Below are positions 205 through 20,531 of a stretch of 64,000 bases of DNA, piece by piece; position 1 is the stretch's first letter; the number at the start of each line of letters is the position of its first letter. The notes below the pieces were generated by a model, which searched no databases, was not told the origin of the DNA, and saw only the letters and a program-made list of their open reading frames with translations. The position numbers and the translations under genes were made by a program. This DNA is from Phlyctochytrium arcticum (Eukaryota > Chytridiomycota > Chytridiomycetes > Chytridiales > Chytridiaceae), in assembly GCA_025602905.1 (NCBI GenBank), contig JAHLKI010000001.1:1736001-1800000 (forward strand), given 5' to 3'.

Positions 205-785
205 TCAAACTGCTACTTGTTTGAGATATTTTGTGAAGCCATCCAAACTCTTCCCGAGCGCAATGCGTCTGCGATCCAACTCTTGGGCTGCGGCGTGTGG
301 GGGGATTCTTCGCGTTCTCGCCTCTTCCTTAACCCGCCTGTAGAAAAAGAGACGGCGGCTGTAAAATTTGGCATCATCGGCCCTCCATTTGGTGCCGTAC
401 TTTCCTTCCAGCCAGAGAACAGATGGGCTTGCACCTATTCCACACGTGTACTCTCGCCAAAGATCCGGAATAGTTGTCAATGTACGACTCAGCTTGTACT
501 TGGGCATCGTAAGTGGCATGACCGAGGGCTCCGTGTAGGTGATGCCGTTGGAGGACCCTTGGGTGGTTGCGGAAGAAGAGGATGGGGTGGAAGTGGAGCC
601 CGCAGTTAATGAGATCGGTTGAGCTTCAGTTGGAGCGAGTTGATCAGCAGCGGGACTGGTCGGAGTGCGGGCAGGGAGAAGTTGGGCTTGCGGATGAGCT
701 TGGGGGTGGGATTGCGGAATGGTCTGGAAAACCATTGGTACGCGTCCCATGTTAAAGTCTAAAAGACGCTCCTTGTAGCGGTGCA
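205..785 (-). pseudogene. Crypton tyrosine recombinase, C-terminal part (split by viral insertion)
   Basis: This is the 3' part of a Crypton-like gene whose 5' part lies at 20520-22160. The minus-strand frame reads from the 12-bp repeat through RYKERLLDF, a low-complexity Pro/Ser/Thr/Ala linker, and then a domain with YKLSRTLTTIPDLWREYTCG, WLEGKYGTKWR and FYSRRLFFYRRV. That order resembles the GCR1_C-type DNA-binding domain that often follows the recombinase in fungal Crypton and Ndc10-like proteins. The frame continues upstream to 870 into the viral repeat, but those residues are not Crypton sequence. Removing 786-20531 joins LEVRGL to HRYKERLL without a frame change, the best evidence that both pieces were one gene. 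Family assignment is by pattern only. Confidence 0.65.
774..785. repeat. Target-site duplication, left copy (TGTAGCGGTGCA)
   Basis: This 12-bp sequence is repeated in direct orientation at 20520-20531. One copy belongs to the Crypton coding sequence (codons for LHRYK on the minus strand). Because the outer 12 bases of the terminal inverted repeat also match, the exact split between target duplication and element end is ambiguous. Confidence 0.7.
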
Positions 786-835
786 TATCAAAGGGAATCC
801 CCTTAAGGGGATTCCCTTTGATATGCACCGCTACA
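774..835. repeat. 62-bp perfect palindrome at the left element junction
   Basis: The two halves are exact reverse complements, centred between 804 and 805 (CCTTAAGG). The outer 12 bases on each side are TGTAGCGGTGCA (774-785) and its complement (824-835). The first is the left target-site copy and the second is the outer end of the left terminal inverted repeat. The 38-bp centre (786-823) has no counterpart at the right end, so the left end carries an extra inverted segment, as a foldback or hairpin-repair event might leave. Confidence 0.9.
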
Positions 836-1421
836 CTGACTGGGTTCCTATATGGATTTGACCTGGTCAAGCGCTAAAACATGCCTAAATTCGAGATCTA
901 TCGTTAAGATGCCGCCCGAGCTAATAGTATAGATACATAGTTATATGGTTACATAATACAGATCTATCCTATTAATAGAACTTTGACCAGATCCTGACCA
1001 GATCCAAGATCGAGTCAGATCCGAGGGCAACCGCCCATCTTGCCTTGAATCTCACATTAATCTATCTGTATCACTTCTGACTCGATGACGTCATCCGCCG
1101 TGGTGTCACTCGTCTCTATTATATCTATATTCCGAACCCACACTTCATTCGTCGTCAGATACAACTCTCTGACTTCCTCTGGCATAGTCGTCACGTCCAC
1201 GCGGCGGGATGTCAAAATCTTGAACTTTAGCTTTTTCAAAATTGTCCCTCGCTTGATTTGATGGCTTGTTATATTCTGCAGCTTCATTGTCTTCTTGATT
1301 GTCGCTAACAAGTCTGTATGTTCCTTTATCAGCTTCTGCGCTTTCTTGAATTCCTGTGATTGATCCAAGTCTATCAGACGTTCCATCTTCTTCTCAAGGT
1401 AATCCATTGATGCTGTCTTGA
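824..1421 (+). repeat. Left terminal inverted repeat (598 bp)
   Basis: It matches 19934-20531 in reverse complement over its whole length with no net insertion or deletion (824+20531 equals 1421+19934). I noticed two substitutions by eye, one near 880 and one that changes residue 5 of the enclosed protein. The inner edge falls inside the 3' end of the fibre-like gene. Near identity suggests either recent integration or copy correction between the arms. Confidence 0.9.
1057..1407 (-). CDS. TIR-encoded 116-aa hypothetical protein, left copy
   Basis: A small, charged, probably helical protein of 116 aa lies wholly inside the terminal repeat and is duplicated at the other end (19948-20298) with one noted difference (E5 here, K5 there). 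The first 60 residues are rich in Lys, Asp and Gln with heptad-like leucines, suggesting a coiled coil. The C-terminal half has alternating hydrophobic and charged residues and an acidic end (DDVIESEVIQID). It overlaps the 3' end of the fibre-like gene by 34 nt in another frame. I do not recognise the family. Its location could suit a role in replicating or protecting element ends, but nothing in the sequence proves that. Confidence 0.6.
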   Translation of the reverse strand: MDYLEKKMERLIDLDQSQEFKKAQKLIKEHTDLLATIKKTMKLQNITSHQIKRGTILKKLKFKILTSRRVDVTTMPEEVRELYLTTNEVWVRNIDIIETSDTTADDVIESEVIQID

Positions 1422-4010
1422 AGGAGCACTTGTGAAATTATCAGTTAGAAGTGAAGTTGAAGTCGAGTCCACTCCAGACAATGACAGAATACTGGTGATT
1501 GTATTCTGCTTCGTCGAAATAGATGTATCAATTGCCGTCTGCCGAATATCATAGACACTTTGAGCTACCTTGGTTCCAATCGATGCGTTAATCGTATTCA
1601 GATCAGTCGTTCGATTTAGATAAATTGACAAGTCTGGATTTAAATTAACAAGACTATACGGAATCTTGTTTGTACCACTTATTTTCGTCTGGTAATTATT
1701 GTTTAGATCTCCTTCAATTGACTCTAGCAATGCCTGTTGTGTATCTATAAGATCAGTTATTGGATTCACTAGTTGAGAGACGAGACTCACAGTATTCGGT
1801 TTAATCACTTCTGAATCGTATTCACGGAGCATCTGAAGATTGATCGCAGTTTGTGGATACTCGTTCTGAATACCGAGATAACTGCATGTAGGGATATCAA
1901 AAAGCAATCTCGTTTCTCCACATGTGTCAGTAGGAAGAGTTGCTATAACGACTTGTCCACCAGGCTGCAACTTGACCGTGCCATCTGGATTTAAAACAAT
2001 AGTACCGTTCTCATCACGTTCCTCTTCACGTTTCTTACCAAAAACCGTCGCAAAACCACCTGCCAAACCGATACCACCTCCAAGAATACCACCTCCCAAG
2101 GAGCCTATGGCACTTGATCCAATAGCCACACCACCTGCTCCTATACCAGCCCCTGTAAATAAACCACTGAGTCCAGTCAAAATTCCAGCAAGTCCCCCGG
2201 TAGCCTGGACGACATCACCGCCTCCGTTCTTCAAGATTTTCCCTTCGCTTCCCTCAGTAGTTTCCTCAGTTGGAGAATCTTCTGCTTTTTTTTGCGTCAA
2301 CGTATTAATACTTGAAATCGTGTAGGGTCCACCAGGACCACCCGTCACAATGATTCCTGTACCTGGTAAGATAGAGAGGGTATTACTAATCGTTTTTCCT
2401 ACCACTGATATACCGTTACCGCCTACATAAGGCTGGTCGGCTTCGGGTTGATATGTGCAAGAAATAGTCGAACCGCTAATGGAAATATTCGTCCCAGCAG
2501 AATACCCGCCTCTAAAGTCGTTACCCACTCGAGTCACTCCAGAACTGGCCGTCAAAATTTCTTCTATATTCGTTTTGGTACTATTCATTTGAAGCCCACC
2601 CGAAACACTAAGATCAAGCTCCACTTGGTGTGAGGAGTTTTCGTGCAATCCGTTGCTAAATGTTCGGGTATCTGTCAGAACTGAACTATCATATTCTAAG
2701 TTGCCACTAGTTTGAATATCGAGAAAAACATCGTTGCCGTTGATACCAAGGCCGTTTGCTTGTTGAAATAGCAGACCACTTGCTATCTTACCGCTACTAT
2801 CGATCCGTATAGTACTGTTATCAACTAGTGGTGATGGATTTACTGAAAGATTCATATTCGTGTCAACTGCTAATGTTGCATCTGTATTCAATTCGACGAC
2901 TTGATTTGTAATCACAAGTGGACCAGTCCCTTGATAAACACCCTTCACGTATTCGGCAGTTGTTGCCTCATAGTCACTTGGATTGCTATTCGGTGATAGA
3001 TTAATATGGCCCACATTGAGTTCATTTAATGTCTCTGTATACGTAAAGTCACTTGTTCTGTTCAAACCCGCAATCCCGTTATCATAGGGTATCTCTCCCA
3101 TACCCGTCGAACGAATTGAGAGTTTATTGCCCGTCTGCTGGAAATTGTTATGATCGACCTCGAGCTTTACAAGTGCTGAATCAAGCGACTCTAATGGATC
3201 TTTGTATACAGAAATTGCTCCCGCACCCTTTAGTAGAGTCGTCGCGTCTTGTTTCTTGGCTTTCAACTTTCCGTCATCAATTTGAAGAGAATCTTCATCT
3301 ATATTCAGGCGGACTACATTATCAACTTCATCGAGTGGTTCAATGAAGGACATGCGCTCTGGAATACGAGCTGTCAATTTTCCATCATCGATGTACAGGG
3401 TATCATCATCTATATTCAGAGTGAGGCGATGGCTGTTTAGTGAATTAAATGAAAATGGTTCTGCTATTTTCAAAGAGAGACCCTTTTTGAATATACTTCC
3501 ATCAAGATCGAGGAGTCCCTCGTCATCATTAAAGTGCGAGGCGTAACGCAACTCTATTTGGTCATCGTCATTGTAGAACAGTGGGCTATCCACTTCTGGT
3601 GGATCCTGTTTTTTTGCCGCTAATCTATTATCTTGATTTAGGAATAATGTCTCTTCATCAATCAAAAGAGCTATGGACCGTTCATTGTTTGAGTCATTTT
3701 CTGAATATGAAAGTGGAACCTCATAAGAGGGATCAATTGTGGTTAGAAGATTATCTTGATTTATATTCAATCGATCAGGATCTATATTCAAGGAAATGGT
3801 TGCCTCTCCCTTGGAAAGACTGGTTAAAAGCGGTGACTCAGTTGACACTGAGTTTACCTTCATTTCGCCATTAGTATTCGATAGTTTTGCGACATCTATA
3901 CTAGAGTATTCGTCACCCTTTAATATACCGCTTATGAAGCTATTTGAAATGATGGTATTATCAAGGGTTTTCATACCCGAGGCATTTCTGCTGTTAATGC
4001 CTGACATCAC
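1374..4010 (-). CDS. Fibre-like virion protein with shaft-type repeats
   Basis: 878 aa. The N-terminal 350 residues contain several copies of a repeat of the form L-x-L-(N/D)-I-D-x-(D/E)-x-L-x-(I/L)-x-(D/Q)-(D/G)-(K/N)-L, for example LTLNIDDDTLYIDDGKL and VRLNIDEDSLQIDDGKL. The periodic hydrophobics and turn residues resemble the triple beta-spiral of adenovirus-type fibre shafts. The middle is Ser/Thr/Asn/Gly-rich beta-type sequence. Around residues 610-660 there is a long Gly/Ala/Ile-rich hydrophobic stretch ending in a basic KKREEE segment, a possible membrane-active or assembly region. The last 16 or so residues are encoded inside the left terminal repeat. An attachment or fibre role is inferred from repeat architecture and from the capsid-like genes in the other arm. 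The upstream region is AT-rich (TATTATAAGT). Confidence 0.6.
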   Translation of the reverse strand: MMSGINSRNASGMKTLDNTIISNSFISGILKGDEYSSIDVAKLSNTNGEMKVNSVSTESPLLTSLSKGEATISLNIDPDRLNINQDNLLTTIDPSYEVPLSYSENDSNNERSIALLIDEETLFLNQDNRLAAKKQDPPEVDSPLFYNDDDQIELRYASHFNDDEGLLDLDGSIFKKGLSLKIAEPFSFNSLNSHRLTLNIDDDTLYIDDGKLTARIPERMSFIEPLDEVDNVVRLNIDEDSLQIDDGKLKAKKQDATTLLKGAGAISVYKDPLESLDSALVKLEVDHNNFQQTGNKLSIRSTGMGEIPYDNGIAGLNRTSDFTYTETLNELNVGHINLSPNSNPSDYEATTAEYVKGVYQGTGPLVITNQVVELNTDATLAVDTNMNLSVNPSPLVDNSTIRIDSSGKIASGLLFQQANGLGINGNDVFLDIQTSGNLEYDSSVLTDTRTFSNGLHENSSHQVELDLSVSGGLQMNSTKTNIEEILTASSGVTRVGNDFRGGYSAGTNISISGSTISCTYQPEADQPYVGGNGISVVGKTISNTLSILPGTGIIVTGGPGGPYTISSINTLTQKKAEDSPTEETTEGSEGKILKNGGGDVVQATGGLAGILTGLSGLFTGAGIGAGGVAIGSSAIGSLGGGILGGGIGLAGGFATVFGKKREEERDENGTIVLNPDGTVKLQPGGQVVIATLPTDTCGETRLLFDIPTCSYLGIQNEYPQTAINLQMLREYDSEVIKPNTVSLVSQLVNPITDLIDTQQALLESIEGDLNNNYQTKISGTNKIPYSLVNLNPDLSIYLNRTTDLNTINASIGTKVAQSVYDIRQTAIDTSISTKQNTITSILSLSGVDSTSTSLLTDNFTSAPSRQHQWITLRRRWNV

Positions 4011-4043
4011 TATTTACTTATAATACACAAATTCTAATCAACC

Positions 4044-4186: not shown

Positions 4187-4693
4187 TTATTCAGAATCAG
4201 AATCGGGAGAAAGAGGTAAAACAATGGGGTTAATGGTTAAACTACGTACTACATTTATGATAATCTCAAGAAATCTCAACAGCTGGTAATGATTTGTCTG
4301 AATCAGCCGGTGGTATCTGGATCCACGTACATCTTCTGGGTCCATAATGGTTTGAATTATTTTAAATTCACTTCTGACAAGCTTCTCCAACTGTTCTGCT
4401 GTGAAACATGCCTCGTTGAACATCTCCATCATTCTATCCATGTTATCTGTATATTGAAACCTCGAAATACTCTGGAATGTGTCCACCAATCCTTGCAATA
4501 TTAAACTATATTGAAATATATCATCCTCATCATCATACTCCTCTAGTCGGTTGATATTACCATAGGTAAAATGGATAGTGGTATTGCACCACGAACTAAT
4601 ACTCTTCAATCGAATAAATTTTGCGCGTGTAATGACTTTGTTGTCGTTTTCGTTGTCACGGATAGCTTCAATGTTGTTATTCTCTTCCGCCAT
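4187..4693 (-). CDS. Hypothetical viral protein, 168 aa
   Basis: Start chosen at the second methionine (MAEENNNIEA), because it directly follows the repeated upstream element 4700-4747; an in-frame ATG at 4714 would lie within that element. The N-terminus is acidic and polar, followed by amphipathic, probably helical segments (FQYSLILQGLVDTFQSI, MEMFNEACFTAEQLEKLV) and a hydrophobic helix near residues 140-155 (LLRFLEIIINVVRSL). The tail is acidic (PDSDSE). No known domain is recognised. It lies between the small Pro/Lys-rich ORF and the divergent 78-aa gene in the left viral arm. Confidence 0.6.
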   Translation of the reverse strand: MAEENNNIEAIRDNENDNKVITRAKFIRLKSISSWCNTTIHFTYGNINRLEEYDDEDDIFQYSLILQGLVDTFQSISRFQYTDNMDRMMEMFNEACFTAEQLEKLVRSEFKIIQTIMDPEDVRGSRYHRLIQTNHYQLLRFLEIIINVVRSLTINPIVLPLSPDSDSE

Positions 4694-5094: not shown

Positions 5095-7560
5095 TTACTC
5101 ACTATCGGAGTTGTCGGCTGATATGTCAACCATTGTTGTTTTAATGCGGTACCCCTTCCATCCTTTTACATTTTGACCATTCTTCTTCATCTGTCGTGTC
5201 TTGTTGGTCGGTGGAGACAGGGTATCCATCCAATCATGTACTTGACCCACTAACTGCTGGGAGTATTGAACACCTGCATTCATGCAGTACTTGCGGAACT
5301 CTTCATTCATCTCTGTGATAGTCAAAACATCTTTTTTGTCGGTTTTTTCTAACATATTCTGTTCAAACGCAAGTGCAATATTCTGTGATAGTTGATAGTT
5401 CTTGGTAGTTTCCTTGATAATGTCAGGCTGAACATCTTCTTTTATCCCTTCTTTTTTGTACTCATTCTGATACACATCAATTAACAATGCAAGGAAAGTA
5501 TCTGCACACGCTAGCAATTCTTTATCGAAACCAGCAATGATGTTTTTTTCGTTCGACTGAGTCGGGTCTACAACCGCCTTGAATCTAGCTTCACAAGGGA
5601 ACACCACCATTTTGCGCCAAAATCCATAGGTCGTATCGAGCACATTGGGAAGTTTGTTTAACATAATGAATGGTTTTACCGCCAATGTGATGGGTTGCAT
5701 TCCACCTTCATACAATTGCCGTGCTGTCGTTTTGTCGCCGCACACAATCATCTTTAAAAATTCAGTATAAAGACTTTTGTGCTCCAACTCGGTAAGAATA
5801 CCACTTCGAATATGCTTCAATGCGACCAAAGCAGGCGACGCACTTTGAGCGTTGATATTAGGTTTGCTAACAAGCGCACTTGAAATTGGCGCGGAGTAAT
5901 CTCCGAATACTATCGAAAGTAACATAGCAAGTAATGATTTTCCATTTGATCCAGTCCCGTGGAAAAAGAAAAACAGCTGATCGGGACTGTACCGATCTAA
6001 TCCACTTGCCAATGCTTTTAACAAGTAACTCTTCATTTTTGATCTTCCCAGAGTAAAGTCATCCAGAAATTTGTTTATGATGTCTTTCTTTTCTTGTGGA
6101 TGATCACTGTATTTTACGTATTTCAAATGTGTCGACATTGTCGAAAAGTCTTCTGGCTTCGCATCTCTCCACTCACCCTTGTCAAGGTCATAAACACCGT
6201 TTGAACAATGTAGATTCCCTGCTTTACTGTTGAACTTCTCAATTATACGTCTGTCGCTATTGAGTTCAAATAGGGCAGAGATGTTATCCTTCTTCTCCCT
6301 AGTCTTCTTCATGTCAGCCTCCGCCAGTTTGGCGACATTCGTACGATACTTCCACAGTTCTGCTGTTTCAGGGTCACTCTCTGCATTCTCTTTACTCAAC
6401 TGGCTACATATGTAATGTAGTTTTGCAAAACTGGTTGCCAATTTGTCAAAGAATGGTCGTAGAATATATGAATAATGTTGTTCTTGCCAAATTCCGATTT
6501 CAGGATTGTAATGTGTCCAGGTATTGTGAATATTATTGGGATATACAACATCTTTTGTCATAGCATATAGGATTTTCGAAATCGCCTGATTGGAACAGTC
6601 TCCTTTTTCGACAAAGCTTTTCGACAGTTTATCTTCGAATGAATCCCACATCGTCATGTAATTCTTGTCTAGGACCACGTTATTACCTGTTCCCGATCGA
6701 CATACAAATCTCAATGTCCCATTATTTCGCACAAGAAAAGGATGATTCGTATTCTTACTGTGATGTCGCCCGCATACTTTACACATATATGGTGCTGTGG
6801 AAGTTATCCTGTATATATTGTCGCGATTGGGTGTCTTGTCGATTTGAACCTGAGTCAAGTAGTATTCACTTTCCATAAACAATTGAACGTCGGCACTTGT
6901 AAGCACGGCATTGTCTACCGGACTGGATGTAAATTCTTGACTCTTCAAATGTTTCTCGTCTTTTTTCATCGTAGATAGAATATTTCGAAGGATCCATCGC
7001 GGCAATGGTGCCATTTCGACCCGGTATTGGTCTACAGCGTCGTCCCAAGTATATGAGGTAACACCTTTGATACTAGGTGGACACATCACGTACCCACCCT
7101 GCTTTCTAACATCAACTGCAATCAACTTGTTGTTCAATGACATGCAACAAGTCCAATTTTTTAACTGAGCTTCTTCTTCGCATCCAGTCATTTTGAAATA
7201 GTAGTGTCTGCCGCCGCTTGGGGTGGTAACAGTCAGTGTTGCTGGTAAATTTTCGTTTTCTGCAATCAATGTATTAAAGTCCTCTACACCGGTTTTTTCG
7301 GAATAGTTCTTGGTCTTTGATGCAGTAGCGGGTGTCTTATTGTCTATATCAAGAACCATGTATTGTGAGGTTATAATCAATCCAAGGTTGCATTCGCTCT
7401 CTAATTTTTCACGTTTCTGAAAATCTTGCGCAAATGAATATTTACCGGGAGACCAATGACCAATCGGACGTTTACGTTTTAGACTAGCTGGAATCGGAAC
7501 GAAGGCCATGTTGGTAGCATGCATCTTTTTGGCGATTTTGAATAACTCTGATTGAACCAT
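5095..7560 (-). CDS. Primase-polymerase / D5-like SF3 helicase
   Basis: About 821 aa (827 from the ATG at 7578; the methionine at 7560 is equally good). The N-terminal 200 residues fit an archaeo-eukaryotic primase-polymerase: VLDIDNK supplies the D-x-D pair and GGRHYYFK a metal/nucleotide-site histidine. Near residue 265 a CKVCGRHHS...FVCRSG pattern looks like the zinc-binding segment of viral primases. Residues around 420-520 fit the D5_N linker. The C-terminal third is an SF3 helicase: Walker A GTGSNGKSLL (about 540), an acidic motif in ILTELEHKS and the sensor-like FIMLNKLPNV. It would unwind and prime the element's DNA. This architecture is usual for nucleocytoplasmic large DNA viruses, virophages and Polinton-like viruses. 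The gene has no intron or break and diverges from the small ORF at 7643. Confidence 0.88.
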   Translation of the reverse strand: MVQSELFKIAKKMHATNMAFVPIPASLKRKRPIGHWSPGKYSFAQDFQKREKLESECNLGLIITSQYMVLDIDNKTPATASKTKNYSEKTGVEDFNTLIAENENLPATLTVTTPSGGRHYYFKMTGCEEEAQLKNWTCCMSLNNKLIAVDVRKQGGYVMCPPSIKGVTSYTWDDAVDQYRVEMAPLPRWILRNILSTMKKDEKHLKSQEFTSSPVDNAVLTSADVQLFMESEYYLTQVQIDKTPNRDNIYRITSTAPYMCKVCGRHHSKNTNHPFLVRNNGTLRFVCRSGTGNNVVLDKNYMTMWDSFEDKLSKSFVEKGDCSNQAISKILYAMTKDVVYPNNIHNTWTHYNPEIGIWQEQHYSYILRPFFDKLATSFAKLHYICSQLSKENAESDPETAELWKYRTNVAKLAEADMKKTREKKDNISALFELNSDRRIIEKFNSKAGNLHCSNGVYDLDKGEWRDAKPEDFSTMSTHLKYVKYSDHPQEKKDIINKFLDDFTLGRSKMKSYLLKALASGLDRYSPDQLFFFFHGTGSNGKSLLAMLLSIVFGDYSAPISSALVSKPNINAQSASPALVALKHIRSGILTELEHKSLYTEFLKMIVCGDKTTARQLYEGGMQPITLAVKPFIMLNKLPNVLDTTYGFWRKMVVFPCEARFKAVVDPTQSNEKNIIAGFDKELLACADTFLALLIDVYQNEYKKEGIKEDVQPDIIKETTKNYQLSQNIALAFEQNMLEKTDKKDVLTITEMNEEFRKYCMNAGVQYSQQLVGQVHDWMDTLSPPTNKTRQMKKNGQNVKGWKGYRIKTTMVDISADNSDSE

Positions 7561-7837: not shown

Positions 7838-7892
7838 ATTACAATCGATCGGCGTGATAAGGCACAAAGTGTGCAATAGAGTATCTCTCGAG

Positions 7893-8543
7893 TATCTAAT
7901 AAGGTAGCTTTGACTTTTTCGTGTGCGGAACTTTTTGATAATAGTCCCGTTGCGTTTTTTGAAAAGGTAGCTTTTTCAGGGCCTCAAAACCTCCCAATAT
8001 TGGAGAGGAGTTTAATTTTTGAGAATTTTTTTTGATTTTTTTTCATTTTTGTTTTTTATGTCTATTTTTTTTGGCTACTTGGCTACCTTTTGTAAAATAA
8101 TGCAACGGTACTCATGTTGTGACGGTCCCTGTGCGAAAATCACTTGGCTACCTTTTGGATACCTTTTGGATACCTCTTCTCCTTTCACATTTTCTATTTT
8201 TCTACATTTTATGTTGTCTTGTTCTCTCTCTAAAAAAATATATATATGTAAAAAGGGAGAGGTATCCAAAAGGTAGCCAAAAGGTAGCCAAGTGATTTTC
8301 GCACAGGGACCGTCACAACATGAGTACCGTTGCATTATTTTACAAAAGGTAGCCAAGTAGCCAAAAAAAATAGACATAAAAAACAAAAATGAAAAAAAAT
8401 CAAAAAAAATTCTCAAAAATTAAACTCCTCTCCAATATTGGGAGGTTTTGAGGCCCTGAAAAAGCTACCTTTTCAAAAAACGCAACGGGACTACTATCAA
8501 AAAGTTCCCCACACGAAAAATGGAAAGCTACCTTCTTAGATAC
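7893..8543. repeat. Large AT-rich foldback (two arms of about 290 bp)
   Basis: Positions 7893 to about 8186 and 8253 to 8543 are imperfect reverse complements, separated by a loop of about 66 nt (8187-8252). The arms contain GGTAGC motifs, long A/T tracts and, near the outer ends, CGTGTGSGGAACTTTTTGATA. Two identical-looking ORFs on opposite strands are simply produced by the symmetry. A second foldback with the same GGTAGC and CGTGTGGGGAA motifs lies at 19541-19795. Possible roles are a replication origin, a transcription end or a nested foldback element. It marks the inner edge of the left viral arm. Confidence 0.85.
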
Positions 8544-8595
8544 CGCGTAGAAGATTAGAGTTAGCGTCGAATGAGTATGTGGCCGCTCGGATCGT

Positions 8596-8733
8596 GTCAG
8601 AATCCTATTGATAGATAGTTGCCACGATCTTAGATCAGATCAGTATAATTTGTATCTATACTCTAAGCTTGCCCGAATACAGGCTTGATCTGCGCTTTGC
8701 CACGGTTCAAAAACCTATCAATAGGATTCTGAC
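8596..8733. repeat. 19-bp perfect inverted repeat at the virus/host boundary
   Basis: The 19 bases at 8596-8614 (GTCAGAATCCTATTGATAG) recur inverted at 8715-8733 around a 100-bp centre. It lies just after the last recognisable viral sequence and just before host-like sequence. It may be a small foldback element or a rearrangement scar. Confidence 0.7.
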
Positions 8734-9117
8734 CCTATATATAGCTTCCGCTCTCGCGTCCCTATATAGATGCCAACCAGTGCCGGGTGGGTGGTCAGTG
8801 GCAATATGCACCGTGGCACCCTGGCACATGTCCACCAGGCCATACACGGTGGGTTTCAGTGTGAATCCAAGGAGCAGCAATTTGCCAGTGCTCCAGCACA
8901 GTGTATGGTTTGTCGGGAGCGCCTGGCGGGTGTCGCTGAACCTGCAATTTTTGCAGCTCAGCAATGGCCAAGAAAAGCTTAACGCTGGCCGGGATGCAAT
9001 CCCAATCGATGCCTTCAATTTTGAAGGAATAAATTCGCAGGACAGACCGATGGCATCGCCTAGTGCACCGCCGAGCAGTAAAGCGGTGAAGCGATCAATT
9101 TTGTTTGAGGAGGGCAT
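8707..9117 (-). pseudogene. ADP-ribosylglycohydrolase fragment (5' end only)
   Basis: The minus-strand frame starts MPSSNKIDRFTALLLGGALGDAIGLSCEF, which matches the N-terminal signature of the ADP-ribosylglycohydrolase (ARH/DraG) family (G-A-L-L-G-x-A-x-G-D-A-x-G). After about 35 residues the expected family motifs, such as the G-x-x-T-D-D-T metal site, are missing and the sequence no longer resembles the family. The open frame to 8707 therefore probably has no meaning. The break lies near the boundary with the viral left arm, consistent with host DNA being cut at that junction. Confidence 0.5.
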
Positions 9118-9395
9118 GGCATGTAACTTTTGGAACAGACTTTTTCGGATTTCATCGGTACATCTCGCTTGATATAATTTGACCGAATGCCAATTTGAAT
9201 GACACTGTCAAAATCACGCCTGCACTGCCTCGAAGCCAGAGGCCTCGTCAGCCTTACTGCCTGACACGTACACGAACGAGCCACGTAGCGTTCAACCAAC
9301 AGGTCAACCACGTATAATTATGCTAAGCCCACAACAACCCGACTATATGGTATATATACCATGCATCTCCTAAAGAGCAAAAGAACTATTCCAAA

Positions 9396-11740: not shown

Positions 11741-11744
11741 TCTA

Positions 11745-13540
11745 TACATGCTCACGTTTACTCAAGACAGCTGTCTTACTGGCAACAGGGCCAGGGGCAG
11801 TCCCACTACCATGTTGGGACTGCTTTGGACCCACCAGGTTGCGATTACTTTGGATTGCTCCTGCAAAGCGTTTCAACATGATACTAAAGACGACTTGCAT
11901 GCTCGCTAACTCCCGGATTGCTGATTGTTTGTCTAGGTAGCCGCCCTATTGCGCCCAAAACGGCTCTTAGGTATTTGCTTAAAAGAAACGTATTGATCAC
12001 GGGAACGCACCTGTAATGCACTAAAGTCCATAGCAGTCGCTTGTTTCATTACATTGGTCAGTTGGGCCACCGGACGGGTGACAAGAATGGATGTAGCTGC
12101 TGCGAAAGCCAACATTCCAACGGCAACAGCCACTGAGGTGACCAGAACGTTTCGGCGAGTAGAAATGACAGTTCCAAGTAAATCTAGCTCTGGGATAATA
12201 ATCATGATCGTCAAATTGAAACCAAAGCGGTCCTGCACGAGCAAAGGAAATATTAGGATTTCTGAGCGTGGGAAAATCTTGGCAAGGACAAGCCACTTAC
12301 GCTGTATGCAAATGTCTCAACATAACTTTTTCCACCTGGTCCATCGAACAGATCTGATGTTCTTGATGGCAAAGACGACAAATTTGCCGATTGATACTTG
12401 TTAGCCAAGCTCTTGGCGGAACTGGATATATAGTCTTGCGGTACATTTAACGCCGTGTATCCATATCGCTTGAATGCAGTCAGACTGGCCGGATCAAAAG
12501 TACTGATGTTTTTGTTGGTGGCTACCAAGGTGCCTTGTTTCGTGAGCCAGATGGCGATGGCAGAATTGGGTGTTGTTGTAATTGTTGAGAGCAGTTTGGA
12601 GAATGTGTCGAAGGCTACGGTGACCATTTGCATTCCCAACGCGGGAGTGTTGGTGTCATACTCTCCAATTGGTAGCCCGCGCCATTGGTTCCTACGCATT
12701 CGTGTTAGCCAGAATGAGTAAATGAGCAAGCTCTCTGCAACCCGAAGGTCTCACCAGTAGAAGCTATATGCTCCAAGCCAGGTGTTAGTGGCATCGTTAA
12801 GCGTAAAGTACGCGGCACGATCCCAAACTCCAGTTTTTGCTCCAGGAATCCAGTAAGGCGGATATGCATTACTAGGTGTGTAATAGCCAGCCACAGTACA
12901 GTTGGCAAAAGTATCTGTAATCCAGAAGTATCGACACGTCTGGCTATAGGGGGGATTGGTGGCATTGTAATGACACAGAATGGAGTCGTGGTGCGGCTTT
13001 CCCATCAGGATGAAATCAAAGTCGTTTGCGCGGACAAAACCGGCATAGACTATAAAGTCGTTCCTGGCAACTGATCGACTGTAGGCGTACTGTAACTCTG
13101 ATTCAGCGTTAAAATCAAAGGGGATGGACACTGCCGGCATAGAGTCGAGCGTTTTGCGAATGACACTCTCCTCCGCATTTGACTGCGCCAACTCGTAGGC
13201 CACTTCGGTTTGTGCCGCGATCTTGTCGTATACTTGTCGGACATAGTTGTCACGTAAGACACTTAGAACTACACATCAAACATTAGCAAAATGATATGAC
13301 CTAATAGTCGATAGTTATGGTCTTACTTTCTTGAACAGTTTTCGTTGCACCATTCAACGACAATACTGCGACGGGTACCGTAATACTCGCTGCCACTAGT
13401 ACACTAACAGCAAGCAAGAGAACGGCAAGGGGTATCCGGAATCGACGAAATTGAGCATCAGCATCGGCCACCACCGACTGTCGTTTTTTGAGCAGATCTT
13501 TTTCAATCTTGCCTTTAGTTCCTTCGTCGTAAGAATCCAT
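11745..13540 (-). pseudogene. Membrane receptor (Cache-like sensor, HAMP-like), 3' truncated
   Basis: Several exons are visible on the minus strand. Exon 1 (from 13540) encodes a basic N-terminus and a first membrane helix (IPLAVLLLAVSVLVAASITV). The next two exons give an extracytoplasmic, Cys/Trp/Tyr-rich domain, with plausible introns at about 13324-13269, 12757-12695 and 12300-12220. A second membrane helix (NVLVTSVAVAVGMLAFAAAT) is followed by a HAMP-like LVTRPVAQLTNVMKQATAMDF. A further piece near 11930-11750 encodes ASMQVVFSIMLKRFAGAIQ, typical of the linker before the catalytic part of fungal receptor cyclases or kinases. No catalytic domain follows, and the frame of the last piece could not be joined cleanly. 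The gene therefore appears truncated. Its introns show the segment came from genomic DNA, not from a copied mRNA. Confidence 0.55.
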
Positions 13541-13724
13541 TTGGTTTACTTGTCGTTTGTTGGGGGACCCTTATGAACTTCAACGAGAAAAAGTTCCCGT
13601 CCAGTTCCTGAAGCTGAATTTATGTGGCGAGCGTGGGCACATGGCGGGCATTAGGGCCGATGAACGTCCGAGACATAACGAAGGGTCACATCCTCCTTGT
13701 CTCGCATCCGTGAAGATTCTTTTT

Positions 13725-13852
13725 GTGCCAAACACTTGGTATTCTCAATACTTCAAGGGTATCCGCAAAACAAACTCTGTTCGTATCGGTGCCAAACACT
13801 TGGTATTCTCAATACTTCAAGGGTATCCGCAAAACAAACTCTGTTCGTATCG
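13725..13852 (+). repeat. Two tandem copies of a 64-bp unit
   Basis: The unit starting GTGCCAAACACTTGGTATTC at 13725 is repeated at 13789 with the same sequence. Its second half (AACAAACTCTGTTCGTATCGG) is also the start of the 123-bp unit that follows, so the two arrays are nested. Confidence 0.9.
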
Positions 13853-14200
13853 GTAACTTATGGTAATGCCGGAAGCCCCCCACCTGATTGACTCGTGGCT
13901 GCCATATCCCCGCTAAAACGCCCACACCCCGCTAGTGAATTTGTTACCTCAAAGAAACAAACTCTGTTCGTATCGGTAACTTATGGTAATGCCGGAAGCC
14001 CCCCACCTGGTTGACTCGTGGCTGCCATATCCCCGCTAAAACGCCCACACCCCGCTAGTGAATTTGTTACCTCAAAGAAACAAACTCTGTTCGTATCGGT
14101 AACTTATGGTAATGCCAGAAGCCCCCCACCTGGTTGACTCGTGGCTGCCATATCCCCGCTAAAACGCCCACACCCCGCTAGTGAATGTGTTACCTCAAAG
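13832..14200 (+). repeat. Three tandem copies of a 123-bp unit
   Basis: Copies start at 13832, 13955 and 14078, each beginning AAACAAACTCTGTTCG and containing GCCGGAAGCCCCCCACCTG or a one-base variant. They differ by only a few substitutions, so the array is young. No coding meaning is evident. Confidence 0.9.
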
Positions 14201-15391
14201 AAGAATGCTTTGGGTTTGCGAACCCGAATTAAGATTGGTTCAGCAATCAATTAATTCGAACGGCCGAGGCCCTGGATCAACAAACAATGGATATAATTTT
14301 GGCGTACAATCTGCGCATGTCCAAAACTATACAGTTAAGGGTAACCAAGTGTGGATACTCTGTCGGATTAAGTAGCCGCTCATTGAGTACAGGGAGGCCT
14401 TCGCTTCGTGAAAGATTGAGTCTAATCAAGTCTCAATGATCCGAACCTCCTCGGCTGGATTCCGCGAATCCTGCAACCTTTATCGATAAAACTGTCCCCA
14501 GGTATTTCAATGGTCCAAAAAATTCAAAGTTGATGAGAAGTCCCGGCAAAATTCCGCCTTACGACAGTCGGTCCCGTCAGGACTTCCACTGAATTTGTTA
14601 TGGAACCGGATCGAGGAATAGTAAAGAAGTATGAATGGGAAGAGAGTTGCAATGCGAGGAGCTATGCTATATTACATACTAGGAGCGACGGAGCAGGTAT
14701 CTGGCAGGGACACAGGTCACGTGTGGCTATTGGGTTTTGCCCCAAACACTTTTTAGGTATCCTGACTTGAGTAGCTCCTTCAACGCGTTGCAGTAGTAGT
14801 TGTCTCTCTATAAATGGACCCCGTTCCGCTTTGGGGAGGACCTGCGCCAACTTCAAAAGTTCTGCGTCATAACTGTCCATGGTGCGTTTGTAAGAAGGAG
14901 GAGGCTGTTGTCTTTGAGTGTCTTATTGGAAATTGAAAATTCAATCCGACAGAGTATCCACACTTGGTTACTTTTAACTATAACTTTATGTGCGAGATTG
15001 TAAACCAAAACTATATCCAATGTTTGTTGATCCAGGCTCTCGGCCGCTCGGATTAGCTGTTTGCTAGACTTCCATTTTAATAGGGTCTTAATATGCGCCC
15101 TTGTTTGTCGGAGTGATTTGACTCTATCCTGGAGGCTATTCCATGATCTGAAAGGTAAATTTAGACTAGACATTGCCATCTTGACAATGGACTCCCACCC
15201 GGCGACTCGGTGATGATGGAGGGGCCAGAAAGATCGAGATCATCGTTTTGTCAGCAAGGGAAGTCAACAGAAATAGTTTCAACCATATAAGAGTTCTTTG
15301 CGAATAGATTATTACCCGAAAAGCCGTGTCCAGTACTGTGTCCAGCTCTTACAATAGGAACTAGAAAATGTAGATCTTGAATATTGAGTGG
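14201..15391. other. Non-coding host-like stretch with a diverged inverted pair
   Basis: The segments 14238-14372 (plus strand) and 14944-15060 (minus strand) are diverged copies in opposite orientation. Both read, in different states of decay, as a peptide with a LDQQTxDIxLxYNL pattern followed by the same NQVWILCRI frame. They look like remnants of one repeated gene or element. Nothing else is recognised here. Confidence 0.45.
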
Positions 15392-15394
15392 CAG

Positions 15395-15406
15395 TGTAGC
15401 GGTGCA
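15395..15406 (+). repeat. Third copy of the junction 12-mer TGTAGCGGTGCA
   Basis: This sequence is identical to the two element junction copies (774-785 and 20520-20531). The match extends to 15 bp with the right end (CAGTGTAGCGGTGCA) and to 14 bp with the left (ending CATA). It lies exactly where Helitron-like coding sequence starts. Confidence 0.7.
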
Positions 15407-16620
15407 TAGCTGTAGCCGCCACGCAAGTCACCGAAATGTCTGTTTTCCTCGAGCGCCAGAACGGTTCACTTTATCTGAACACTTTCAATCCATTATTTGC
15501 AACTTTGTTCAAATTCAACCACGATATACGTCCCATGCTTGGTGGGGAGGCGGCGGATGTGAAACTTTATGTCATGAAGTACTCGTTCAAACCACAAGTC
15601 CAATTCGAGAAACTGCACACGATATACGCTTCGGCTTTACGAAAGAGCATTGAACGGGAGACACAGGTGGAGGAAGTTGATGAGAGCTCGCAGTGGACCC
15701 GGGGGTTCAGGAGGATGAAGCGACAGGTGACGGATTTGAGCGGGAAGATGGAAGTTGTTTCCACAATGGCTGCACTGTACTTGCTCCGGAAATCGGCATT
15801 CTACGAGTCACACGAGGTTGTGCAACTGTATATCAAGTCCATCATAAATGCCATTACGCTGGAGGGGGATGTCGACATCATATTTGCCAGTACCACAAGC
15901 CAAGAGGAAAGTCGCAACGCAACCGGCGAAAGGACAATGAAGGCGATCAACAATGGCACCGATTATCTTGCAAGGCCGGAAACTGCGGATTTCGATGACA
16001 TGTGCCTTTTCCAGTTCACCTCCAAGTTCATCAAACGCAAATCGTCCAAGACGGCGACCACACACCAGCTGGCCGAAGGACACCCCCAACGAAACACGCA
16101 CCGTTTGGAAAGCCGAAAAAAACCCGTTTTCGTCAATGTTGTTTCGAAACAAATAGCCGACCTTTCCAAAGACGACGTTTCGAACGACGAACTTGAAAGA
16201 TCTTTCCGGATGATCCTTTTCTTGTTTAAACCGTACCGGTCGCTTGCTTGCCTTCGCACGGCCCCCACGTGGGAGCAATCTTTTTACGACTACGCTGACG
16301 CCGATGATGGAACGGAGAACTACATCGCCATGCGAACGTTTCTGCGCAACACGGAAGATCACTATATGGGGAAAAGGCGGGCGGCAGAGCTTGGGCGACG
16401 GAACGTTGAGGCGGAGCTTCGGGAGAACCACCCCGATGTCCCGGTGGTGCTCACGTCGGGGGATGCGGGAGATGATGGTTGGGAGGATGACAGTGGGTCA
16501 GAAGCATCATCTACAGCAACCGGCGACGAAGACGAGACTATCGTTGTACATAGCGGAGTGGACGCCAGGGGAAAGGGTATTCGTTTGTCCGGTGCTATCG
16601 ATTTACTATTGTATATAGGT
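15407..16620 (+). pseudogene. Helitron helicase fragment
   Basis: The frame contains YLNTFNPLFATLFKFNHDIRP, then VKLYVMKYSFKPQ, and further on DDMCLFQFTSKFIKRK and FRMILFLFKPYRSL. This order (a x-N-P-x-x-x-x-x-x-x-x-N-x-D-I block, a Y-x-x-K-Y block, a C-L-F-x-F block and a L-F-K-P-x-R block) resembles the region between the Rep and Pif1-helicase parts of fungal Helitron proteins. Neither the Rep HUH motif nor the helicase motifs are present, so it is a fragment. The frame stays open and runs in phase into the viral penton-like gene, giving a chance fusion ORF of 651 codons from 15436 to 17391. Confidence 0.5.
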
Positions 16621-16671
16621 TTCACTCGATACATGTTTCTTTTCTATTATATAAGAGAAGAAACAAGTACG

Positions 16672-17391
16672 ATGATCAACGAGTGGACATTCTGTAGCTT
16701 GAAAGGCCGTAGCTTTCCCATAGGTCGTCGCAATGTCAGTTACATCAAGATTCTCAGTGTATCCTTCATCCAAGACTATGATCTTATTAATTCAACCAAC
16801 AACACCATTGTATTCAAAGAAAGCGGCAATGACGATCCAATTGTTGCAACTGTTCCACCAGGGAACTATACTATTGCCAACTTTGGACAATCTATTGCCT
16901 CATCCATGACTATTGCAGGTTCCCAATCGTATTCTGCAACCTACAACCAAATCACACGTCGCATTACATTGACTTCTGTTGATAAGGATTTCAGTATTTT
17001 GCCTGGCAAAGAAGGAACAAAAATGTACAGTGTCAGTGGCATGTCGAATCGCACAGCGACACCTTTAGGCAAATCTGCTACATTTAAAAACACAGTGAAT
17101 CTCTCAGGTAGTTACCCCATACTTCTTACTAGCAACATCAACGTCCCTTCAGTTAGATTCCTTAGCGATTATAACGACATTGGTAGCAGTGTAGTAGCAA
17201 CATTAGTGCCTGACAGTTTCGGAGACGTCATAAATTTCACTAACGATTCAGAATGGCTTACAGTGGATCAAACTATTAGCAAAATCGAGTTCCATCTTGT
17301 AGACAGCATGACCAACGAAGAATTGGCCCTAGAATCGCCTTTAACAGTCAGGTTTCTTTTGGCCGATGACATCCAAGATGTGAGAATATAA
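16672..17391 (+). CDS. Penton-like minor capsid protein (candidate)
   Basis: 239 aa. Start chosen at 16672 (MINEWTFCSLKG), because the upstream in-frame codons belong to the Helitron fragment and the ATG is preceded by an AT-rich block with TATTATATAAG. Sequence features are those of penton/minor capsid proteins of Polinton-like viruses and virophages: an early hydrophobic strand, the VPPGNYTIANFGQSI segment in which a G-N-Y turn is followed by a helix, a following strand-rich domain and a C-terminal ISKIEFHLVDSMTNEELALE block. It probably forms a single jelly-roll at capsid vertices. It is the first gene of a plus-strand block that ends with the capsid-like gene. Identification is by pattern only. 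Confidence 0.55.
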   Translation: MINEWTFCSLKGRSFPIGRRNVSYIKILSVSFIQDYDLINSTNNTIVFKESGNDDPIVATVPPGNYTIANFGQSIASSMTIAGSQSYSATYNQITRRITLTSVDKDFSILPGKEGTKMYSVSGMSNRTATPLGKSATFKNTVNLSGSYPILLTSNINVPSVRFLSDYNDIGSSVVATLVPDSFGDVINFTNDSEWLTVDQTISKIEFHLVDSMTNEELALESPLTVRFLLADDIQDVRI

Positions 17392-17394
17392 GAA

Positions 17395-17612: not shown

Positions 17613-18095
17613 ATGAATACTGAAGAAGACGCTTTACTTGAACCACAAGAAACTAGTCCGGTACAGGATGTTGTACAAGAACCTGTACGAGAAGCAGTAC
17701 AACAAGAAGAAGAACGAACCGCTACTGTAATTGAAGAAGCACCCAAGAAAAAGAGGCAGATGTCTGAGAAGCAAAAGGAAGCTCTACGCAAAGCGCAAGA
17801 GTCGAGGAAGATTCAATTGAATACTATGCAGAGACAACGTGATGAAGAAAGAGAACAATTGGAATACCAGAGGAAAATTGAAGAGGCCTACAACTTGGTG
17901 AATCAATTAGAAGAACGTAAACGACAAGAAAAAGAACAGAAACGTCTCGAACGGTTACAAAAGAAACAATTGAGAGAACAGAAGAATACGCAAGTCAAAC
18001 CAAAGGCCCAAAAGAAACAACAAGAAGCAAAAACTAAACAAGTGGAAAAAAAAGTAGTTGAAAAGGAAAATTTTGGCGGAATATTCGGGTACTGA
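17613..18095 (+). CDS. Basic coiled-coil virion-associated protein (candidate), 160 aa
   Basis: Residues 1-45 are acidic. Then come a basic cluster (EAPKKKRQMSEKQKEALRK) and about 80 residues of Lys/Arg/Glu/Gln-rich continuous helix, and the protein ends in the unusual hydrophobic tail NFGGIFGY. Acidic-to-basic helical proteins with a Gly/aromatic tail are seen among DNA-condensing or capsid cement proteins in small dsDNA viruses, but I cannot name a homologue. It lies directly upstream of the capsid-like gene and shares the T8 signals at both ends, so it is probably expressed with it. Confidence 0.6.
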   Translation: MNTEEDALLEPQETSPVQDVVQEPVREAVQQEEERTATVIEEAPKKKRQMSEKQKEALRKAQESRKIQLNTMQRQRDEEREQLEYQRKIEEAYNLVNQLEERKRQEKEQKRLERLQKKQLREQKNTQVKPKAQKKQQEAKTKQVEKKVVEKENFGGIFGY

Positions 18096-18122
18096 TTTTT
18101 TTTATATATTCATTAAGTAACC
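18096..18122 (+). promoter_or_regulatory. T8 tract before the capsid-like gene, copy 3
   Basis: Eight T (18096-18103) follow the TGA of the 160-aa gene immediately, then ATATATTCATTAAGTAACC leads to ATG 18123. The T8 is conserved but GATAAA is absent here, so the two parts may be separate signals (end of one transcript, start of the next). Confidence 0.45.
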
Positions 18123-19373
18123 ATGACTGAAAATATTCCGCGTAATTGGCTTGTCCACAGCAACCGCTTTGCTAAAAGCTATAGCAACCCGAGAGGTGAA
18201 TCTTGGTTGTTTTTTAATCCACTTGGTCAGGACGTATTCACCAGTAAAACTCGAACTACAACACCTATCAAGATTTCCTTAAATGATTCTTCTCGATCCT
18301 TGATATTGCAAAAGTTGCTTCTTTCATTTGACGTAACTGCCATGAAAAACCGTGTTCCTGTTTCAGGGAACAATATTGTGAATACAGAATTGGGTCTTGA
18401 TGGTCTTATTCAAAGTGTTCGTGTTCAAATTGGTAACAAAGTTCTTCAGGAAATTCCCAACTATCCTCATTATCTAACTCACAACTACAAGTATATTCCT
18501 GAAACGTTGAAGAAAACGATTCGAAGTATGAACGGCTATGGTGCGACGAATATATTTGAAGCATCACCTACCGTATCTTACACGAGTCACATGCCGATAG
18601 GATTTTTCCACTGTGATGACGAACGTCCTATGCACATATGGGCAAATCCGTCGCAGAATATTGATATATACTTGACTATAGTCGATCCCAAACAGTTTTA
18701 CTTGAATGATACAGTTGATGAAGTTATATTCAGAAACGTTGAATTCTTGGTCCCATGTGTTACTCCTCCTCCTGAATACGTATTCCAAGTGGAGAAGTCG
18801 ATTAGTGCTGGCAAAGCAATCAATTACGATTACGTCCGAACGACTCAAGTTGAAATTAATTGTAACGGTGCTAGTCGCCAAATCTACTCTACAAACTTTT
18901 CTGGTGTACGCTCTTTACGATCTATTGATTTCTCATGGATTGACGACGACCAAATGCAAGATCTTTCCAAGGACAAGAATGCAATTAGTTCTTCCAAAGG
19001 GTTACGCCAGTGGTGGCTTTCCGTAGGGGGTACTATTATCCCGAATAACACAGGTAGAGGCTTCCAGAATTCACTAACGAATCCCCAGACTCTATTGGTC
19101 ACTCAATTACAACAGAATGACTTTTACTCTATGGGTGAATTGTCACTCCCTAGTTTGGCTGATTATAACAACAAGTACTTTAGTGCGGGCTGGGCTTTCC
19201 AATCTCTAGAAGAAGGTGTTCCGGCTGCATTGAACTTCACTGGTACGGATGCTGTATTCAAGTTGACCACTGAGCACGATCCTAACAACAAACCTAGTAG
19301 CAACTGTCGCTTGTTGTTGACATACCAAGAGAACGTTACCCTCAGTATTTCAGACTTGGTTGATGTGATCTAG
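18123..19373 (+). CDS. Major capsid protein, double jelly-roll type (candidate)
   Basis: 416 aa without intron or break. Strand-rich throughout, with two halves of similar length separated near residues 200-225. The first half starts with short N-terminal residues and PLGQDVFTSKTRTTTPIKIS, has LNTELGLDGLIQSVRVQIG-type strands and a PNYPHYLTH loop. The second half contains VEINCNGASRQIYSTNFSGV, RSIDFSWIDDDQMQDL and an RLLLTYQENVTLSISDL end. The pattern and size suit the double jelly-roll capsid proteins of small dsDNA viruses such as Polinton-like viruses. It follows the penton-like and coiled-coil genes, a typical morphogenesis cluster. It lacks the long insertions that give large-virus capsid proteins more than 450 aa. 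Structure prediction would settle the call. Confidence 0.6.
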   Translation: MTENIPRNWLVHSNRFAKSYSNPRGESWLFFNPLGQDVFTSKTRTTTPIKISLNDSSRSLILQKLLLSFDVTAMKNRVPVSGNNIVNTELGLDGLIQSVRVQIGNKVLQEIPNYPHYLTHNYKYIPETLKKTIRSMNGYGATNIFEASPTVSYTSHMPIGFFHCDDERPMHIWANPSQNIDIYLTIVDPKQFYLNDTVDEVIFRNVEFLVPCVTPPPEYVFQVEKSISAGKAINYDYVRTTQVEINCNGASRQIYSTNFSGVRSLRSIDFSWIDDDQMQDLSKDKNAISSSKGLRQWWLSVGGTIIPNNTGRGFQNSLTNPQTLLVTQLQQNDFYSMGELSLPSLADYNNKYFSAGWAFQSLEEGVPAALNFTGTDAVFKLTTEHDPNNKPSSNCRLLLTYQENVTLSISDLVDVI

Positions 19374-19540
19374 ATGACCAATTAAATATTTTTGAAAAAG
19401 ACTTTGTAATATAAAAGCTTCAAATAATGCAATGCCCGAATAGTAAAGAATAGAGAAAGAATCACGGAACAGAGAGTGTGCGGGGTGGGGATAAAGTCGT
19501 GGTCTGACCCAAGAGTGTGAGTCATAAGAGACATTTTAGA

Positions 19541-19795
19541 GGTAGCAATTTGGGTAGCAATTTTTTAAACGTGTGGGGAAGAACATGAAGGTAGTCCCCA
19601 CTCGAATATTTCATTAGGTAGCAAATTATTCTGAAAAACTTTTGTAAAAAACAAGAAGTAAAAAAAAAAAAATGAAAAATTTTTGTTTGGCCTACAAAAA
19701 AATAGTTTTGGAAGAATATTTTGCTACCTATGAAATATTCGAGTGGGGTTTGAGCTCATATACTTCCCCACACGAAACAGCGAATTGCTACCAGT
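19541..19795. repeat. AT-rich foldback of the right viral arm
   Basis: About 100 bp on the left (19541-19640) and 75-100 bp on the right (19715-19795) are imperfect reverse complements. They include CGTGTGGGGAAG, CCCCACTCGAATATTTCAT and GGTAGCAA blocks around an A/T-rich loop. It shares GGTAGC and CGTGTGGGGAA with the left-arm foldback at 7893-8543. It lies between the capsid-like gene and the gene in the terminal repeat. Confidence 0.8.
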
Positions 19796-19933
19796 AGCAT
19801 CAAGTGAAAAGGAAGGAGCAAGAGAGTCTTTCCTATCCATAGAAAGAAAAGGTATAGATACAATCACGACGATATAAAGCGACGAACCTGCCTCAGATAT
19901 CCTCAGTTAGAATCAAGTTAGCACCAGATAGCA

Positions 19934-20531
19934 TCAAGACAGCATCAATGGATTACCTTAAGAAGAAGATGGAACGTCTGATAGACTTGGATCAATCACA
20001 GGAATTCAAGAAAGCGCAGAAGCTGATAAAGGAACATACAGACTTGTTAGCGACAATCAAGAAGACAATGAAGCTGCAGAATATAACAAGCCATCAAATC
20101 AAGCGAGGGACAATTTTGAAAAAGCTAAAGTTCAAGATTTTGACATCCCGCCGCGTGGACGTGACGACTATGCCAGAGGAAGTCAGAGAGTTGTATCTGA
20201 CGACGAATGAAGTGTGGGTTCGGAATATAGATATAATAGAGACGAGTGACACCACGGCGGATGACGTCATCGAGTCAGAAGTGATACAGATAGATTAATG
20301 TGAGATTCAAGGCAAGATGGGCGGTTGCCCTCGGATCTGACTCGATCTTGGATCTGGTCAGGATCTGGTCAAAGTTCTATTAATAGGATAGATCTGTATT
20401 ATGTAACCATATAACTATGTATCTATACTATTAGCTCGGGCGGCATCTTAACGATAGATCTCGAATTCAGGCATGTTTTAGCGCTTGACCAGGTCAAATC
20501 CATATAGGAACCCAGTCAGTGTAGCGGTGCA
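19934..20531 (-). repeat. Right terminal inverted repeat (598 bp)
   Basis: Reverse complement of 824-1421. It ends GTCAGTGTAGCGGTGCA, after which Crypton coding sequence starts at once (GGCCTCTGACC). Unlike the left end it has no extra palindromic segment. Confidence 0.9.
19948..20298 (+). CDS. TIR-encoded 116-aa hypothetical protein, right copy
   Basis: Same protein as at 1057-1407 with K5 instead of E5. Here the region upstream of the start is unique sequence, not fibre-gene coding sequence: the repeat ends 14 nt before the ATG. The two copies therefore have different promoters, and if only one is expressed it is more likely this one. Function unknown. Confidence 0.6.
   Translation: MDYLKKKMERLIDLDQSQEFKKAQKLIKEHTDLLATIKKTMKLQNITSHQIKRGTILKKLKFKILTSRRVDVTTMPEEVRELYLTTNEVWVRNIDIIETSDTTADDVIESEVIQID

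Follow-up and report, generated by a model that had tools for sequence, protein, structure and literature searches.

The 64,000-nucleotide window analyzed here (C1:1736001-1800000 of the 31.5-Mb assembly of the chytrid Phlyctochytrium arcticum, which has 91 contigs; C numbers are contigs and L numbers are loci) contains, at 774–20531, a Polinton-like virus (PLV) that is defective and recombinant and belongs to a family resident in this fungus. The integrated state is plain in the assembly: there is an insertion with its empty site, and the window copy and its relatives display terminal palindromes, target duplications, a pair of adjoining enzyme genes, and a mosaic centre. The palindromes, which lie inside exact 5-bp duplications and whose arms change together, are best read with moderate confidence as the traces of a variant PLV whose hairpin-capped DNA is opened and inserted by the rve integrase that it encodes. 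More tentatively, these would be linear, hairpin-capped double-stranded DNA viruses with two unrelated DNA-joining enzymes, one a telomere resolvase of the tyrosine-recombinase type for making the hairpins, the other a retrovirus-type integrase by which these hairpins are opened at CA and the genome is inserted; each provirus would thus preserve a record of its telomeres in the form of full palindromes flanked by 5-bp target duplications.

The insertion interrupts a Crypton gene, of which Pfam profiles identified the 3′ half, with the GCR1_C domain, on the left (205–786, minus strand, the first codons running into the viral end) and the 5′ half on the right (20532–21928, minus strand, the NDC10_II match itself covering 20873–21928 of that strand). 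The first-pass annotation, made from the sequence alone, had proposed a PLV integrated in a chytrid Crypton, and the two halves flanking viral genes bear this out. Uninterrupted Crypton copies, which it had suggested looking for elsewhere in the genome, were also found. The right flank has 12 matches in the assembly (itself, one short match, and 10 others), and four of them, on C32, C3, C17, and C6, reach the junction. The two of these that were read, on C32 and C3, are uninterrupted and are 98% and 97% alike, respectively, to the joined window flanks; the C32 copy is an open frame of 655 aa. In both, the empty site is CGCTCCTGCAGGCC, i.e., CTCCT/GCAGG. The inserted DNA extends from 774 up to the TGCA common to virus and target (20528–20531). 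The 5′ half of the window's Crypton copy is divided between two frames (20650–21928), near a run of G whose length is unlike that of the uninterrupted copies.

These copies also settle the nature of a 12-mer, TGTAGCGGTGCA, that is present at both ends of the insertion (774 and 20520) and had been taken for the target, across which removal of the element would rejoin the Crypton codons in frame. The join is indeed in frame, but it is 9 bases longer than the empty sites on C32 and C3; because those sites are without 9 of the joined bases, the 12-mer is viral, and the actual target is CTCCT/GCAGG. The repeat is not confined to the ends, being found again at 15395 and, inverted, at 824 (four window matches versus a mean of 0.21 in shuffles), and it is the outer box of the viral terminal palindrome, of which little is left on the right. 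Its interpretation as a target site or target duplication was therefore rejected on account of the 9 bases missing from C32 and C3. Recombination of circular viral DNA at the 12-mer, also considered, fits the window alone and is contradicted by the palindromes that relatives carry at both ends within 5-bp duplications. Directly outside the left end, CTCCT (769–773, plus strand) is the remaining left copy of a presumed 5-bp target duplication, which we infer the window copy to have once had from the C32 and C3 empty sites and from eight of eight relatives. No sign was seen of a preference for this site, as the flanks and 5-bp duplications of the eight two-ended relatives differ from the window site (no search was made for other elements in Cryptons).

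The left end of the window copy is a perfect, telomere-like palindrome of 62 bp with TG...CA edges (774–835); the inverted-repeat search, set to arms of 12 or longer and loops of 6 or shorter, found no second one in the window. The 598-bp terminal inverted repeats that had been annotated are present at 824–1421 (plus strand) and 19934–20531 (minus strand), matching at 596 of 598 positions, with differences at 887 and 1395. The last 12 bases of the right repeat are the remnant of the right palindrome, which is gone past these first 12 bases, and host sequence restarts at the TGCA that both partners have in common.

Relatives of the element were examined at 26 end loci, picked from inverted-repeat and related searches of the assembly. 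A terminal palindrome was observed in 24 of these, for a total of 25 palindromes, L050 having two. Eight elements have a palindrome at each end, and in all eight an exact 5-bp duplication lies directly outside: TGCCG in the first of the two on C1, CCGTT on C4, GACAT on C15, GTCAG on C18, GTTAC on C23, GTAAC on C26, CCCTG on C40, and GACAT on C41, the same duplication thus occurring in two elements (C15 and C41). Since the duplications set the edge of the element at TG...CA, the palindromes are part of the element. The pattern CRGTGCATA-N20-50-TATGCACYG has 44 matches in the assembly, while its reversed control has none. Further pairs of palindromes lie on C2, C3, C6, and C25.

Some loci show other arrangements of these ends. 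On C25 (139562–141298), two terminal palindromes are ~1.7 kb apart, perhaps a miniature deletion derivative. On C18 (177965 and 203134) and C2 (456728 and 480828), palindromes of different kinds stand at the ends of what is seemingly one element, which suggests recombination between co-resident viruses. The C26 element (370323–395460) sits between pieces of the capsid gene of another PLV type (366725–367926) and matches to an integrase and a protein-primed polymerase (396299 and 400414), so that the region (~366.7–401 kb) is perhaps one virus inserted into another.

The arms were compared in 40 palindromes (26 distinct), 32 from the pattern listing and eight from the fetched loci, with four left out. 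Mismatches were found in 3 of 800 arm cells. Because the outer nine arm positions are fixed by the pattern, the fair count is that of the inner 11, in which 437 of 440 pairs match and three do not; these 440 cells count identical and related copies separately, and the events are fewer than the cells. Across 19 distinct arms, the inner positions are on average 33% identical, and each of these positions shows three or four kinds of matched pair. As the inner arms are matched within palindromes though diverse between arms, the two arms change together. For example, the inverted repeats of the C18 element are ~6.5% apart and its two palindromes are unlike each other, each being internally matched. 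The centres were scored at 13 ends with a recurrent asymmetric centre and a known orientation, a single 3-nt centre being left out. In the inward direction, the 1-nt centres read T at four ends and A at four, and the 5-nt centres TGGAG at three and CTCCA at two (7:6 in total). Where both ends of an element have 1-nt centres (C18, C26, and C41), they were opposite relative to the repeats in three of three cases, which may be chance. In poxviruses and parvoviruses, replication through hairpin ends gives matched arms and flip-flop, and the arms and centres described here fit what such replication would be expected to leave.

The enzymes that could act on such ends are encoded in relatives. In the C26 element, of which a 9.7-kb stretch (L071, ~40% of the element) was read, there is a gene for an rve integrase with a chromodomain, together with a packaging ATPase gene (Pox_A32, E 8e-10), and adjoining the integrase gene tail to tail is a gene for a 483-aa protein. 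The assembly has 16 matches to this protein, representing 15 loci, since two on C2 are pieces of one, and at 13 of the 15 the gene is convergent with an rve integrase gene within 200 bp. At the other two, C3:474638 and C72, no integrase was found nearby among the best 100 of 187 candidates in the integrase search. All six sequences checked have R, K, R, H, and Y in catalytic order with H-x8-Y, in the motifs PPRR, YKT (the lysine), LTSTD[L/M]R (the arginine), and GH[S/A]x7Y; in L084, a degraded distant copy, the second arginine is missing. These residues were set against the catalytic ones of lambda Int, Cre, and TelN; TelN has H416 and Y425, and GH or GW was found at the same nine-residue distance from a tyrosine (G-H/W-x8-Y) in nine of nine phage integrases fetched. 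When the catalytic part of the 483-aa protein was aligned with phage integrases in the register of these motifs, the HHalign score was 19.1, while column shuffles gave a mean of 12.3 (sd 1.7) and none of 60 reached it.

The hairpins, their opening, the resolvase role, and the order of events are what we infer from these integrated copies. Integration produces 5-bp target duplications, most simply by way of the family's own rve integrase. Both ends of the linear viral DNA would be covalently closed, the terminal palindrome folding into a hairpin cap, and the integrase would cut after the CA at the hairpin base, giving a 3′ end that bears the whole palindrome as a single strand. This freed end would be joined to host DNA at a 5-bp staggered cut, and gap repair would copy the opened hairpin, leaving inside each target duplication a full palindrome followed by the inverted repeat. 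Opening and insertion would need only known rve chemistry and gap repair, and the tyrosine-recombinase-like protein would be the candidate enzyme for turning replicated palindromes back into hairpins. A deletion would have removed the right palindrome and the right duplication from the window copy, consistent with the viral/target microhomology at TGCA; a small deletion of this kind would account for the absent right duplication. The viral centre of this copy has given way to the tip of a different PLV, a 6.6-kb host-like stretch, and a presumably Helitron-like fragment.

Several observations weigh against the hairpin reading. The viruses are known here as integrated copies, and covariation and flip-flop are indirect signs of closed ends. 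The palindrome is missing at two of the 26 end loci, of which L003 (C46) stops just past the box and L051 has lost its end. Both enzyme genes are present in six of the eight bounded elements, and neither was matched in C4 and C40 (for the integrase, among the best 100 of 187), which may have lost both enzymes or use those of other elements. Scans of viral_contigs with the capsid protein, the capsid alignment, the primase, and the recombinase-like alignment returned no relatives. Neither the 483-aa protein nor its alignment has a recombinase match in Pfam, PHROGs, the Protein Data Bank (PDB), or phage records, and its structure model (pLDDT 37.8) is unusable. For its catalytic part against phage integrases, the HHalign probability is 1.7%, and the full-length comparison gives 0.8% in the wrong register. 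Against phage telomerases (TelN-like) the score is 12.4, with a shuffle mean of 13.5 and 37 of 60 shuffles reaching it, while the reference sets of phage integrases and telomerases match each other clearly (39.7). Given the profile score and the catalytic motif, but also the low HHalign probability and the lack of a telomerase match, the 483-aa protein is likely, judging by its sequence, a tyrosine recombinase, and its role as a telomere resolvase is a guess made from its context.

This last point leaves room for a plausible rival, which we place somewhat short of probable, in which the hairpins are real and the recombinase-like protein is not their resolvase: it would circularize the DNA, resolve multimers, or excise the virus, and another enzyme, possibly of the host, would make the hairpins. 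The protein's want of profile similarity to phage telomerases is in keeping with this, as are C4 and C40, where palindromes and duplications occur and the recombinase-like gene was not detected; in addition, other PLVs are predicted to integrate circular DNA by tyrosine recombinases (PMC4642659; PMC12220804). However, the rve integrase and the 5-bp duplications already account for integration, and no other resolvase candidate is known from the L071 stretch. It is also conceivable that the hairpins are not real, and that each palindromic tip is a paired integrase binding site, made of two inverted boxes, with arms alike by function and conversion and with open free ends. Both arms of the palindromes carry the conserved box CRGTGCATA, which the 44-match pattern itself requires and which a binding site would be expected to keep, and free ends have not been seen. 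Such a site would need the box only, whereas the inner positions also match (437/440), despite varying from element to element, and asymmetric centres in both orientations are directly accounted for by replication through a hairpin; we regard the paired site as unlikely.

The window copy itself raises the question of assembly errors, from which its mosaic centre and truncated right end might have arisen. Palindromes and repeats are difficult to assemble, and the 6.6-kb host-like stretch is single-copy in the assembly. Nevertheless, 44 palindromes were kept in the assembly, the window's left one among them, the C46 element (L003) is likewise truncated just past the box, and the right joint passes exactly into Crypton sequence at the common TGCA. 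An artefact of this kind is, in our opinion, quite improbable.

The left arm of the window copy carries an ORF of 116 aa with no assigned function (1057–1407, minus strand), mostly within the left inverted repeat, a fibre-like protein of 877 aa (1374–4007, minus strand; Pfam Av_adeno_fibre, E 1.1e-7; no sequence match in the PDB), and an unassigned protein of 168 aa (4187–4693, minus strand), taken from the ORF list and with no profile identity. These are followed by a primase/D5-type helicase of 821 aa (5095–7560, minus strand; Pfam Prim-Pol 5e-20 and D5_N 7e-9), with a PDB match to the putative primase C962R (E 1e-11), and by an inverted repeat (7892–8543), its 313-nt arms separated by 26 nt, that resembles part of the C8 element at ~74% and seems to be a sub-terminal viral segment duplicated in inverted orientation. 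On the right arm are a viral gene remnant (16561–17391, plus strand; 91–96% identical to relatives), an unassigned protein of 160 aa (17613–18095, plus strand), likewise from the ORF list and with no profile identity, and the major capsid protein of 416 aa (18123–19373, plus strand). Among the virus-type genes of the first-pass annotation, the primase-helicase, fibre-like, and capsid genes were confirmed, the last on a weak profile match and a low-confidence model. The penton-like (minor capsid) protein, which corresponds to the gene remnant, was not confirmed: the ORF at 15436–17391 is the Helitron-like fragment fused to the viral stretch and has no profile match, Pfam included.

The profile, structural comparison, and relatives support a double-jelly-roll capsid protein. 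Pfam gave a weak Capsid_N match (E 0.005, below the cut-off of the profile), and the first 29 of 50 matches in the structural comparison were capsid or scaffold proteins of double-jelly-roll viruses, the model being of low confidence (pLDDT 42). Many capsid proteins were among the Foldseek matches to viral models, with TM-scores mostly ~0.2, and the capsid alignment found nothing in the PDB. The nearest capsid relatives in the databases are Spizellomyces proteins (44% and 39%), in line with a PLV affiliation. The palindrome pattern matched three stretches in viral_contigs, none of them a palindrome. According to the ORF list and profiles, the window copy is without the packaging ATPase, rve integrase, and recombinase-like genes of its relatives; the family has the ATPase gene and the window copy has lost it. 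None of the 14 assembly matches to protein-primed DNA polymerase B (PF03175) falls within the window or the eight bounded relatives.

The interval 774–20531, previously described as a clear single virus, is thus a broken mosaic, in which ~8 kb of the middle comes from elsewhere: from the tip of a second PLV, from host-like DNA, and from a Helitron-like repeat. The viral arms have GC contents of 0.399 and 0.392, the values being 0.483 at 8820–15391, 0.516 at 15392–16538, and 0.49 in the flanks. The foreign tip (8548–8819, plus strand) is of a different PLV type, has ~87% identity to the ends of the C15 element, and is missing about half of its palindrome. The following DNA (8820–15391) has a host-like GC content and no second copy in the assembly search, and encodes an arylamine N-acetyltransferase (9396–10832, minus strand; open frame of 478 aa, assigned by Pfam). 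Within the assembly, this gene has no second copy and a single paralogue was found, on C27 and 59% alike; the database search gave distant relatives only, the best being 35% over 32% of the query (among the best 120 of 421); the stretch is possibly host DNA that moved with, or into, the virus. It also contains tandem repeats of 64 bp (two copies) and 123 bp (three copies) at 13725–14200 and 14242–15065, and a separate inverted repeat with 71-nt and 40-nt arms. At the next joint is an orphan viral terminal box of 17 bases (15392–15408, plus strand), the reverse complement of 822–838, and after it a fragment of a dispersed repeat (15407–16538, plus strand), of which C25 and C4 have copies at 99% and 97% identity, respectively. 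The fuller C25 copy encodes a PIF1 helicase domain, and we take the repeat to be Helitron-like; viral sequence restarts at 16561. A patchwork with a short templated piece looks like the product of error-prone break repair. Viral ends broken just after the box GTGCA(TA) were seen three times, at 15392–15408, at 20520–20531, and in L003 on C46.

Parts of the proposed life cycle are familiar from other systems. Poxviruses and African swine fever virus have hairpin-capped linear DNA with flip-flop ends, as proposed here, and a D5-type or C962R-type primase-helicase like that of the window; their genomes are much larger and are not known to carry an rve integrase. A double-jelly-roll capsid is shared with Polintons and mavirus-type virophages. 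These also have an rve integrase, long inverted repeats, and short duplications, while Polintons have a protein-primed polymerase and typically 6-bp duplications (PMC12220804; PMC12747079), in place of the primase-helicase, 5-bp duplications, and palindromic tips described here. Phage N15 (56-bp palindrome, N15 record) and the telRL-like site of a phaeovirus (PMC13236599) likewise have a palindrome of ~60 bp where the telomere will form, and their genomes encode a recombinase-type enzyme; in N15, however, the site is internal and not linked to rve integration, whereas here the palindromes flank the provirus and there is no similarity to phage telomerases. Closest in setting is the PLV group of Spizellomyces punctatus (PMC7805220), also integrated in a large contig of a chytrid host. 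For three integrated elements, fungal and oomycete pooled, that paper gives target duplications of 5–7 bp, and in its available text palindromic or hairpin ends are not mentioned, neither word being used. Among cryptophyte PLVs, the two enzymes are found together solely in those with an integrase–reverse transcriptase fusion (PMC12220804). The main texts of PMC11071308, PMC7805220, PMC10120064, PMC12220804, and PMC4642659, as available, contain "palindrom" nowhere and "hairpin" once, in a reference, and PMC12747079 mentions the terminal hairpins of giant viruses. No description of palindromic PLV ends was found in the searches made here of PMC papers, a scope outside which subscription papers, preprints outside PMC, and supplements fall.

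It is the terminal architecture of the family, more than the broken window copy, that merits attention. It is, to our knowledge, an open question how a linear genome preserves its ends in PLVs that lack a protein-primed polymerase. The covarying palindromes offer a concrete, testable answer for one PLV lineage, and show how an integrase could use closed ends. The earlier target-site claim would have pointed to an incorrect mechanism of integration. Together, the box, the palindrome, and the 5-bp duplication provide an exact criterion by which such proviruses can be recognized in fungal genomes and their limits set.

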